A stretch of 64,000 bases of DNA from Williamsia sp. 1135 (GTDB lineage Bacteria; Actinomycetota; Actinomycetes; Mycobacteriales; Mycobacteriaceae): the NCBI RefSeq assembly GCF_002095395.1, contig NZ_MJEI01000092.1, positions 1-64,000 on the forward strand. The letters are read 5' to 3'. Positions 42,572 through 45,809 of this stretch are shown here, in pieces. The notes under the pieces are model-generated. The model was not told where the DNA came from. It did not search any database and saw nothing but the letters and a program-made list of their open reading frames with translations. The translations under genes were made by a program, and so were the position numbers. Every line of letters starts with the position of its first letter. The stretch's first letter is position 1.

Positions 42572-43660
42572 CTATCCCCCGCTGGCGGTGAGGAACTCGC
42601 TGTAGAACAGCGACAGTCCCAGCGCGCAGGCGATGGCCGTGAGCAGCCAGAACCTGATGATCACCGTGGTCTCTGCCCACCCGGACAGTTCGAAGTGGTG
42701 ATGGAAAGGCGCCATTCGGAAGACTCTCCGGCCTGTGGTCCGGAACACCGCGATCTGGATGACCACCGAGATGATCTCTGCGACGAACAGTGCACCCACG
42801 ACCACCATCAGCAGTTCGGTGCTGGTAGTGATGGACAGGCCGGCCAGCATGCCGCCGAGTGCGAGTGAGCCGGTATCGCCCATGAAAATCTTCGCAGGCG
42901 CGGCATTCCACCAGAGGAATCCCAGACACGCGCCGCCGCCGGCCACAGCGATGAGCGCGAGGTCGAGTGGATCGCGCACGGTGTAACAGCCGGGTTCGGC
43001 AGTCTTCGGTCCACCGACGCAGGCATTCCGGTACTGCCAGAACGTGATCAGGACGTAGGAGCCCAGCACCATCGCCATCGATCCGGCGGCGAGACCATCG
43101 AGTCCATCGGTGAAGTTGACGGCGTTCGACCAGGCCGAAACCACCAGCCAGACGAACACGACGAACGCGACCGAGCCCATCGTGATGGCGTCGATCTCGC
43201 GTACGTACGACAGGTTCGTGCTTGCCGGTGTGTACCCGGCATCGTTCCGGAACTGCAGTGCCAGGACACCGAACAGGAGGGCGGCGATCAGCTGGCCCAC
43301 CGACTTCGCTGTCTTGTTCAGACCGAGGTTGCGCTGCTTGCGGATTTTGATGAAGTCGTCGAGGAACCCGACCACTGCCAGCGTCGTGGCCAGCGAGAGC
43401 ACCAGGATGCCGGACGCGGTGGGACCGCCTCCGTCGGTCGCGAGTCCGACCAGATGGGCGCCCCAGTACCCGGCCCACAGAGCCGCGACGATGGCGACGC
43501 CACCCATCGACGGGGTGCCGCGTTTGGTCTGATGACTCTTGGGCCCTTCGACCCGGATCTCTTGGCCGAAGCCCTGTCGTGAAAAGACCTTGATCAGCAC
43601 CGGGGTCAGCAGGATCGCGACAGCCAGCGAGATCACCCCCGCAATCAGGATCTGTCTCAC
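42572..43660 (-). CDS. mraY: Phospho-MurNAc-pentapeptide translocase
   Basis: 362 residues from a GTG that directly follows the stop of the murF remnant (TAGGTG). Makes lipid I from UDP-MurNAc-pentapeptide and undecaprenyl phosphate. Ten membrane segments; signatures [42 protein letters not shown] and the [11 protein letters not shown] loop with catalytic Asp residues; HHHFELSGW near the end. A complete enzyme, which needs pentapeptide substrate and therefore implies MurF activity somewhere in the cell. Confidence 0.97.
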
Positions 43661-44164
43661 CTAGAAGTCCTCACCTTTCGATACCCCGTCGGCCACAAAT
43701 GATTCGGCCAGTCTCAGCTCACGTCCACCCATGACCAGGACCACGTCGTCTTGGCCGAGTTGCGCATCCAGTATGTCCAGCGCCTCCTTCGGGCCCGACA
43801 CCAGCACCGCCTCCGAACCCCACGACCCTTCCATGACCGCCCCCTGGTGGAGGCCGTGCATCGCCCGCGACGTCCCGACACAGATCACCTGAGCGATGTC
43901 GAGTCGTACCGCGAGCCGCCCGAGTTCGTCGTGTGCGACCACCCATCGCGTCATCTCGAGCGCGTCGCCAGCGTCGAGTTCGTCGGGCGGATCGAGCTCA
44001 CCGAGTATGGCCCAGCTGCGCCGTTCCGGCTGGGCATGCACGGCATCGGCGAGTTCACGCAGCGCCGACCGCACCGATCGCGCAGTCACGGGCCCGGCCG
44101 GATGGGGCAGCAGATGACCCGCCGTGCGTCCGTCCGACAACGTCAATCGTGTCTGCGGGGTCAA
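43661..44164 (-). CDS. MurF remnant: stand-alone C-terminal Mur-ligase domain, catalytically incomplete
   Basis: 167 residues at the murF position between murE and mraY. From about residue 34 (VRSALRELADAV) to the end it follows the C-terminal domain of mycobacterial MurF as remembered: RRSWAILGEL, HDELGRLAVRLDIAQVICVG, MHGLHQGAVMEGSWGSEAV, GQDDVVLVMGGR. MurF is normally about 480-510 residues; the UDP-substrate domain and the ATP domain (GTSGKT) are absent. In what remains, the DDxYNANPxSM segment is replaced by an unrelated GHLLPHPAGPVTARSV stretch, the usual VLVKASR lysine is Met, and about ten residues are inserted after GEL. Start is a TTG overlapping the murE TGA, with GGAGG seven bases upstream. 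The frame is intact, so it may be expressed. Confidence 0.82.
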   Translation of the reverse strand: MTPQTRLTLSDGRTAGHLLPHPAGPVTARSVRSALRELADAVHAQPERRSWAILGELDPPDELDAGDALEMTRWVVAHDELGRLAVRLDIAQVICVGTSRAMHGLHQGAVMEGSWGSEAVLVSGPKEALDILDAQLGQDDVVLVMGGRELRLAESFVADGVSKGEDF

Positions 44165-44177
44165 TCGTGCCTCCGGG
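44142..44177. repeat. 18-bp tandem duplication at the murE/murF-remnant junction
   Basis: Units 44142-44159 and 44160-44177 agree at 16 of 18 bases (GTCAATCGTG then TCTGCGGG or CCTCCGGG). On the minus strand the upstream unit supplies the GGAGG ribosome site and the TTG start of the murF remnant as well as the murE stop; the downstream unit repeats the CACGATTGAC core. It may be a scar of the event that shortened murF. Confidence 0.75.
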
Positions 44178-45786
44178 ATCGCGCCGGCCCATCCGCAGCG
44201 GGAGAGCTGCGCTCGGTCAGCACCTCGTCGATCGCCTCGGCGAGGACGACGCGGTCGTCGAACCGGTGTTTGACGCCATGGATCTCCTGCCCGGCTTCGT
44301 GTCCCTTACCTGCGATGAGGACCACGTCGCCGGGCCGCGCCCACGCCACCGCGGCGCGGATGGCCTCGGCGCGGTCCCCGATCTCGCGCACGGCTTCTGC
44401 GCCGTCGGGCCGCGCCGAGGCCGCCACAGCGTGCGCGCCGGACAGTACCCGTGCCCGGATCTCCGAGGGCGTTTCGGTTCGAGGGTTGTCGTCGGTGATC
44501 ACCACCAGCTCCGCTCCCCGCGCCGCAGCCTCTCCCATGAGCGGCCGCTTGCCCGTGTCCCGGTTGCCACCGGCTCCCACCACAACCGCGATCCGCCCGT
44601 TCGCCTGACCGCGTAGCGTCTCGATGACTGCGTCGAGCGCCGCAGGCTTGTGCGCGTAGTCGACCACGGCGAGGAAGTCCTGCCCTCGGCTCACCCGTTC
44701 GACCCGGCCTGGCACTGCAACATCGCTGATCGACGCGATCGCGACGGTGGTCGCCACGCCCGCCACCGAGGCGATCGCGACGGCGGTCAAGGCGTTGGCG
44801 ACGTTGAATCGCCCAGGCATGGGGACGGTCATCGTGAACGTGTCCCCGGCGGGATCAGTCAGCGTCACCGTCTGACTTCCGTCGGCAGCGACGTCCGATG
44901 GGCCGGCGTGCCAGTGGGCCGCGGTGTCGCCGGTCGAGAGGGTGATCGCGTTCTCCCCGGCGATACGGGCCATCTCCCGGCCCCATTCGTCGTCGACGCA
45001 GATGACGGTGCGCAACGCGTGCACCGCCGAATCAGGGTGGAAGAGCAACGATTTCGCGTTGAAGTAGTCGCGCATCGTGGGATGGAAGTCGAGATGGTCC
45101 TGCGAGAGATTGGTGAACGCTCCTATCCCGAACACGCTGCCGTCCACCCGGCCGAGCTCGAGGGCATGGCTCGAGACCTCCATGACGGCGGCGTCCACGC
45201 CCTGCTCGAGCATCGCAGCGAGGAGACCCTGCAGTTCCGGGGCCTCCGGGGTGGTCAGGGCGCTCGGCTGACGGATACCCGCGATACGGGTCTCGACCGT
45301 ACCGATCAGGCCGACCGAGTGACCATCCGCCATCAGGGCCGCCTCGGTGAGGTAGCTGGTGGTGGTCTTGCCCGAGGTACCGGTGATGCCGACCAGCGTC
45401 ATCCGGCGCGAGGGCTGGCCGTAGATTCGCGAACTCAGCTCCCCGAGCACCTGACGCGGCCGGGGATGCACCAGGACGGCGCAATCGATCGGCCCCGCGA
45501 TAGCCTCGACGATGTCGCGGCCCGCCCGGTCGGTGAGCACGGCGGTGGCCCCGGCGGCCAGGGCATCGGCGGCGAACTGAGCACCGTGCACCTTGCTTCC
45601 GGGCAGGGCCGCGAAGAGATCGCCGGCACGTACGTGCTGCGCGCGCAGGGTGACGCCGGTGACCTCGGTCTTCTCGGTGACTTCGCCGATCAGATCGATC
45701 CGCGCACCACTCGCCGCCGACAGCACCGCGACTTCGGTCGGTGTCACCGCGGCTGGGCGCAGCACCGAGTTCTCGGGAGCAGACAT
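44161..45786 (-). CDS. murE: UDP-MurNAc-tripeptide synthetase (meso-DAP-adding)
   Basis: 541 residues from the ATG at 45786 (a GTG two codons earlier is also possible). Full Mur ligase: N-terminal domain with TLRAQHVRAGDLFAALPGS, ATP loop GITGTSGKTTTSYL, EVSSHALELGRVDG, NLSQDHLDFHPTM, and DDNPRTETP, the DNPR motif for meso-diaminopimelate. Normal length, so the missing part of murF has not been fused to it. The stop overlaps the TTG start of the murF remnant. Follows pbpB by 23 bases. Confidence 0.96.
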   Translation of the reverse strand: MSAPENSVLRPAAVTPTEVAVLSAASGARIDLIGEVTEKTEVTGVTLRAQHVRAGDLFAALPGSKVHGAQFAADALAAGATAVLTDRAGRDIVEAIAGPIDCAVLVHPRPRQVLGELSSRIYGQPSRRMTLVGITGTSGKTTTSYLTEAALMADGHSVGLIGTVETRIAGIRQPSALTTPEAPELQGLLAAMLEQGVDAAVMEVSSHALELGRVDGSVFGIGAFTNLSQDHLDFHPTMRDYFNAKSLLFHPDSAVHALRTVICVDDEWGREMARIAGENAITLSTGDTAAHWHAGPSDVAADGSQTVTLTDPAGDTFTMTVPMPGRFNVANALTAVAIASVAGVATTVAIASISDVAVPGRVERVSRGQDFLAVVDYAHKPAALDAVIETLRGQANGRIAVVVGAGGNRDTGKRPLMGEAAARGAELVVITDDNPRTETPSEIRARVLSGAHAVAASARPDGAEAVREIGDRAEAIRAAVAWARPGDVVLIAGKGHEAGQEIHGVKHRFDDRVVLAEAIDEVLTERSSPAADGPARSRRHD

Positions 45787-45809
45787 TTCCACAACATACC
45801 GCCGACGGA

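Follow-up and report, generated by a model that had tools for sequence, protein, structure and literature searches.

A MurF domain-3 stub kept between murE and mraY in Williamsia and related genera, and a possible second function of actinobacterial MurF

The essential protein MurF is targeted by drug development and, to our knowledge, is generally regarded as an enzyme alone. The window analysed here, a stretch of 64,000 nucleotides from Williamsia sp. 1135 (contig NZ_MJEI01000092.1; the genome is in 107 contigs and estimated to be 100% complete), holds a dcw cluster in which murE, a frame of 167 codons and mraY follow one another without gaps. A sequence-only reading had taken the short frame for a lone, catalytically incomplete domain 3 of MurF between complete murE and mraY genes. 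What is this frame, how did it come to stand there, and what might it do? The features concerned are as follows.

43661..44164, minus strand: the stub, 'MurF-C' (MurF domain-3 stub), 167 amino acids, TTG start with a GGAGG site; it retains the QGAVMEGSWGSE block but not the catalytic elements
43811..43846, minus strand: coding for residues 107-118 of the stub (QGAVMEGSWGSE), its best-conserved block; coordinates derived from the residue numbering and confirmed against the sequence
44161..45792, minus strand: murE, complete, overlapping the stub by 4 bases
42572..43660, minus strand: mraY, complete, with its GTG start directly after the stop codon of the stub

The four bases shared by murE and the stub are TTGA, and GGAGG stands 5 bases before the stub's TTG. 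The stop codon of the stub, TAG, abuts the GTG of mraY, and the last stub codons form an AGG-rich stretch just ahead of that start. Overlapping one gene and abutting the other in this way, the stub could be a relic kept for operon mechanics, supplying mraY with a ribosome site and coupling its translation, while the protein itself is dispensable. We consider that improbable on the evidence of selection, residue conservation and gene fusion given below. The stub is 93% identical to its counterpart in Williamsia sp. 1138 and 92% identical to that in W. soli.

Profile searches placed the stub within MurF. It aligned to positions 310-412 of the 418 in TIGR01143 (MurF) with 32.2 bits, short of the cut-off of 288.6. 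In Pfam it matched Mur_ligase_C alone (27.7 bits, slightly below the cut-off of 28.4), and the ATP-binding middle domain, Mur_ligase_M, was not found in it; domains 1 and 2 are absent. Among solved structures only MurF chains matched the stub, and weakly (best E 0.0059); the three alignments inspected leave the conserved block uncovered. The homology to the domain 3 of actinobacterial dcw MurFs extends over the domain, with HD..GR.AVRL and EGSWG in common, whereas the YNANP, GEMxELG and VLVKAS elements of those enzymes are lost. Going by what is established for Mur ligases, the stub cannot be the ligase. The locus is also distinct from a bifunctional MurE-MurF (profile NF008896; 22.9 bits against a required 1023), and murE and the stub are separate frames in the window.

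The same gene is widespread in related bacteria. A stub was present in 9/9 Williamsia genomes (152-167 codons, starting with ATG, GTG or TTG), each with exactly one full-length MurF elsewhere, and in 40/40 sampled genomes of five related genera: g9 (29), which we take to be probably Gordonia, g34 (8), and g12, g16 and g7 (1 each). These 40 likewise carry exactly one full MurF at a site other than that of the stub. The layout was established from the murE-mraY interval or the frame in 47 of the 49 genomes, and in the other two (G113 and G125) from stub frames that are 225 and 223 residues long plus a full MurF on a separate contig; the order murE, stub, mraY held in all 44 genomes read in detail, including Mycobacterium sp. 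MYCO198283, described below. Projected from alignments, the interval is bimodal, at 365-676 or 1388-1583 bases, and seven Tsukamurella loci have the long form (1466-1517 bases). The sequence-only reading had also raised a recent deletion or an assembly error, and that proposal is the sole support for either; a layout shared by 49 genomes of six genera and one Mycobacterium, with a full MurF elsewhere in all 49, leaves them next to no probability. A frame error at the stub was rejected on the same common layout.

The Mycobacteriaceae sample comprised 301 genomes, of which 264 matched, and the stub genera are those recognised among the matches listed, so stubs of other genera may have been missed. 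A single full MurF was also found in 24/24 genomes from 24 other Mycobacteriaceae genera. The stub query matched inside that full MurF in 17 of them, the remaining 7 not being comparable from the lists, and 8 of the 17 were read as lying between murE and mraY. Overall, one full MurF per genome was the rule in 9/9 Williamsia and 64/64 other genomes. Three loci appeared under unexpected names. L058, titled Kitasatospora arboriphila NRRL B-24581, has a Williamsia dcw cluster (mraY 96% identical) and is likely mislabelled, while L063 (titled Acidobacteriaceae bacterium) and L130 (titled Bifidobacterium breve) have Mycobacteriaceae-type dcw clusters, with mraY 83% and 75% identical to that of Williamsia, and are likely mis-binned contigs.

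The one full-length MurF above cut-off in Williamsia sp. 1135 lies at C75:7723-8955 (391.6 bits). It is divergent from a ddl gene whose product is by far the top Dala_Dala_lig_C match of the genome (224.1 bits, against 61.6 for the next). We examined 20 such distant MurFs of the 49 (9 from Williamsia, 8 from g9, 2 from g34 and 1 from g7, with g12 and g16 left out). The divergent arrangement with ddl recurred in 20/20 loci (L001 and 19 others), so the two genes may share a promoter region. The 20 proteins form one clade with a support of 0.999, and in a midpoint-rooted tree of 66 this clade falls outside both the Mycobacteriaceae dcw MurFs and those of the class, with weak deeper branching (0.578). 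No donor was found among the 26 best class loci outside the stub-bearing genera, which are 49-54% identical; a xenologous origin of the distant MurF is likely.

The stub itself sides with the dcw enzymes. It matched 19/19 Mycobacteriaceae dcw MurFs with a median of 85.5 bits but only 12/20 distant MurFs, with a median of 20.8 bits, the other 8/20 giving no match. A partial duplication of the distant MurF was rejected as the source of the stub, since the similarity to the dcw MurFs is far greater. By its position between murE and mraY and its nearest relatives in sequence, the stub descends from the dcw gene. It had been suggested that a full-length murF moved elsewhere and that the remnant gained a structural or regulatory role. 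A full MurF is indeed found elsewhere, but it is not the old gene moved, because the 20 distant proteins form a clade of their own that is not nested among the Mycobacteriaceae dcw MurFs, which it is the stub that resembles. In a tree of MurE and MraY the stub-bearing genomes did not form one clade (support 0.306), and 12 rows with a full-length gene fell inside. Most stubs probably descend from one event; for the main group the support comes from the single clade of the 20 distant MurFs and not from the MurE/MraY tree.

To define which residues the stub has lost and kept, we compared 48 stubs (9 Williamsia, 29 g9, 6 g34, and 1 each from g12, g16, g7 and MYCO198283) with 94 full-length proteins. 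As the sequence-only reading had claimed, the YNANP element and the late VK[AG]S lysine are missing: both strings, and residues D22, Y24, N25, N27 and K145, occurred in 0/48 stubs and 94/94 full-length proteins. Conversely, E112, G113, S114 and W115 of the EGSWG block were found in 48/48 stubs and 94/94 full-length proteins, 70 of the 94 having come from a search whose patterns held part of the block and L065 and L108 having been excluded beforehand. Residues H78, D79, G82, R83, V86, R87, L88, G97, R100, G108, E112-G116 and E118 were each kept in 46-48 of the 48 stubs, M111 in 47, A109 in 45 and V110 in 43. Q107 was present in 48/48 stubs but in 44/94 full proteins. Because most stubs probably share one origin event, the 48 do not amount to 48 independent trials.

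In sets not drawn by motif, EGS[WF] occurred in 18/19 Mycobacteriaceae dcw MurFs (chosen by family score), in 18/26 class MurFs and in 0/20 distant MurFs. The block is thus not universal, being absent from 8 of the 26 and 1 of the 19. L192, from genus g5, is a full-length Mycobacteriaceae MurF without the block and offers a natural test of the need for it. Since the block kept by the stub is also conserved in full-length dcw MurFs, any role it may have looks retained rather than gained. Alternatively, the domain might need the block only in order to fold.

Purifying selection acts on the stub, slightly less strongly than on MurE. Over core residues 26-156 its dN/dS was 0.024-0.318 (NG86, 19 of 78 pairs), compared with 0.051-0.340 for murE and 0-0.176 for mraY in the same 19 pairs, with synonymous change near saturation in the distant pairs. 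The stub value was higher than that of murE in 11 of the 19 pairs (by up to 3.5-fold), lower in 7 and equal in 1. Across the whole 167 residues it was mostly higher still (0.117-0.257 in five pairs among the four closest strains), indicating that the ends are freer to vary. With dN/dS well below 1 and the same gene in 8 other Williamsia, the frame is not a chance one, and the earlier view of it as retained rather than decaying holds.

Additionally, in 8/29 g9 genomes murE runs on into the stub with no intervening stop codon, and MurE, a linker and the stub, EGSWG included, are read as one frame. The eight cluster together and separately from the remaining g9 rows, in a weakly supported region of the MurE/MraY tree. 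Here the separate start that a relic for operon mechanics would supply is abolished, yet the domain is still kept; a dN/dS far below 1 over residues 26-156, and the presence of EGSWG in 48/48 stubs against YNANP in none, likewise speak against a dispensable protein. The fusion, together with the 4-base overlap with murE, could instead mean that the stub is a stabilising or activating extra domain of MurE alone, with no tie to other machinery. This would leave the conservation of the block inside a separate full-length MurF unexplained, unless the block serves folding alone, and we regard it as unlikely.

The same outcome was apparently reached in a separate lineage. Mycobacterium sp. MYCO198283 (L062; G542 and G684 lie at the same contig place and were treated as one genome, 99% complete) has murE, a stub of 139 codons and mraY, with overlaps of 1 base and about 4 bases, the latter with a projected mraY start. 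Its stub retains EGSWG but neither YNANP nor VK[AG]S. Its MurE and MraY are mycobacterial, and in the tree of these two proteins it is nested in Mycobacterium with a support of 0.985. No MurF above cut-off was found in this genome. The best match (191.8 bits) is a protein of 507 residues with Mur_ligase_M and Mur_ligase_C and without the block; this protein may do the work of MurF. Its N-terminal part appears hydrophobic on visual inspection, and at L264:1045-3706 it is followed by a divergent relative of D-Ala-D-Ala ligase, the best Ddl match of the genome. Because the adjoining pair are the best matches to both enzymes, MurF and Ddl may have been replaced together. A search of 396 Mycobacterium genomes gave matches in 381, and among the best 30 of the 381 loci 29 keep YNANP and VK[AG]S, the sole exception being MYCO198283 itself; it may not be the only such Mycobacterium.

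Two separate lineages appear to have lost the catalysis of the dcw MurF; each has another MurF beside a Ddl, and in each the same part of domain 3 survives. Most simply, that part would perform a task of which the other MurF is incapable. Our favoured reading, which we think somewhat better than even, is that the stub is a kept non-catalytic MurF domain 3 with a second function, probably that of docking MurE and MraY to the growth or division machinery. Another MurF would have taken over catalysis in an ancestor. The domain 3 of actinobacterial MurF would have a second function, with the QGAVMEGSWGxE block at its centre, and because the replacing MurF lacks that block the old domain could not have been discarded. 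Placed next to MraY, and serving MurE as a small partner or an added domain, the stub would then tie the late cytoplasmic Mur steps to proteins of division and polar growth or to their kinases.

Docking is favoured because of the site beside MurE and MraY, the fusion to MurE and the contacts reported for mycobacterial Mur synthetases. In M. tuberculosis these synthetases interact with FtsZ, FtsW, FtsQ, Wag31, the SepF orthologue, PknA and PknB, according to PMC3605390. The same study found no contacts among the Mur synthetases themselves, MurE-MurF included, which disfavours a simple MurE-MurF contact in mycobacteria. It also reports that DdlA and the NamH homologue interact with MurF only. 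The DdlA contact, the adjoining MurF and Ddl genes of the 20 loci examined and the full MurF elsewhere in all 49 main-group stub genomes would be consistent with a stub that serves the distant MurF, or the pair of MurF and Ddl, as a regulatory subunit, binding the enzyme or the former ligand of domain 3 and tuning pentapeptide synthesis. That is doubtful, however, as the block is also found in the full dcw MurFs of genomes without a second full MurF, the fusion partner in 8 genomes is MurE rather than MurF, and the block is likewise kept in MYCO198283, where the MurF-like protein is a different one. Under the docking reading, more broadly, actinobacterial MurF would be a moonlighting protein, in which an old non-catalytic role of domain 3 (the EGSWG block) was cut out and kept at least twice, stand-alone or as a MurE appendage tying precursor synthesis to the growth machinery; we put this at about an even chance.

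Two apparent natural replacements, in which dcw catalysis was removed but one part of a single domain was kept, suggest that MurF has a second function, and the residues of the block are shared by the MurFs of mycobacteria and of many other actinobacteria. The stub is also a small protein that could reveal the tethering of the cytoplasmic Mur steps, long a question in work on Mur complexes. In the open literature (subscription papers were outside the scope) we found no paper naming a MurF domain-3 stub and none on murF with Gordonia and Williamsia or on the dcw cluster with Williamsia; searches for a truncated, paralogous or pseudogene MurF returned the muscle protein MuRF1 or single mentions. 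The stub and the implied second function of MurF thus appear to be new, while non-catalytic relics that keep a function are known in general.

MurT of the MurT/GatD pair, as generally known, is likewise a Mur-ligase relative with another role. It keeps the Mur-ligase middle domain, and the stub differs in having domain 3 only. The MurE-MurF fusion of Bordetella (NF008896; PMC6420597) joins MurE to MurF sequence, as in the fused g9 genomes, and interacts with MurG; its chain contains both enzymes in active form, whereas the g9 fusion, in 8/29 genomes, carries a MurF domain 3 without catalytic residues. Lastly, murF-like genes near glycopeptide-resistance genes in Actinobacteria (PMC8698665) resemble the present case in placing a murF-like gene near D-Ala-D-X ligase genes. 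Unlike those genes, the distant MurF beside ddl is the only full MurF of its genome, and the reduced copy is the one in the dcw cluster.
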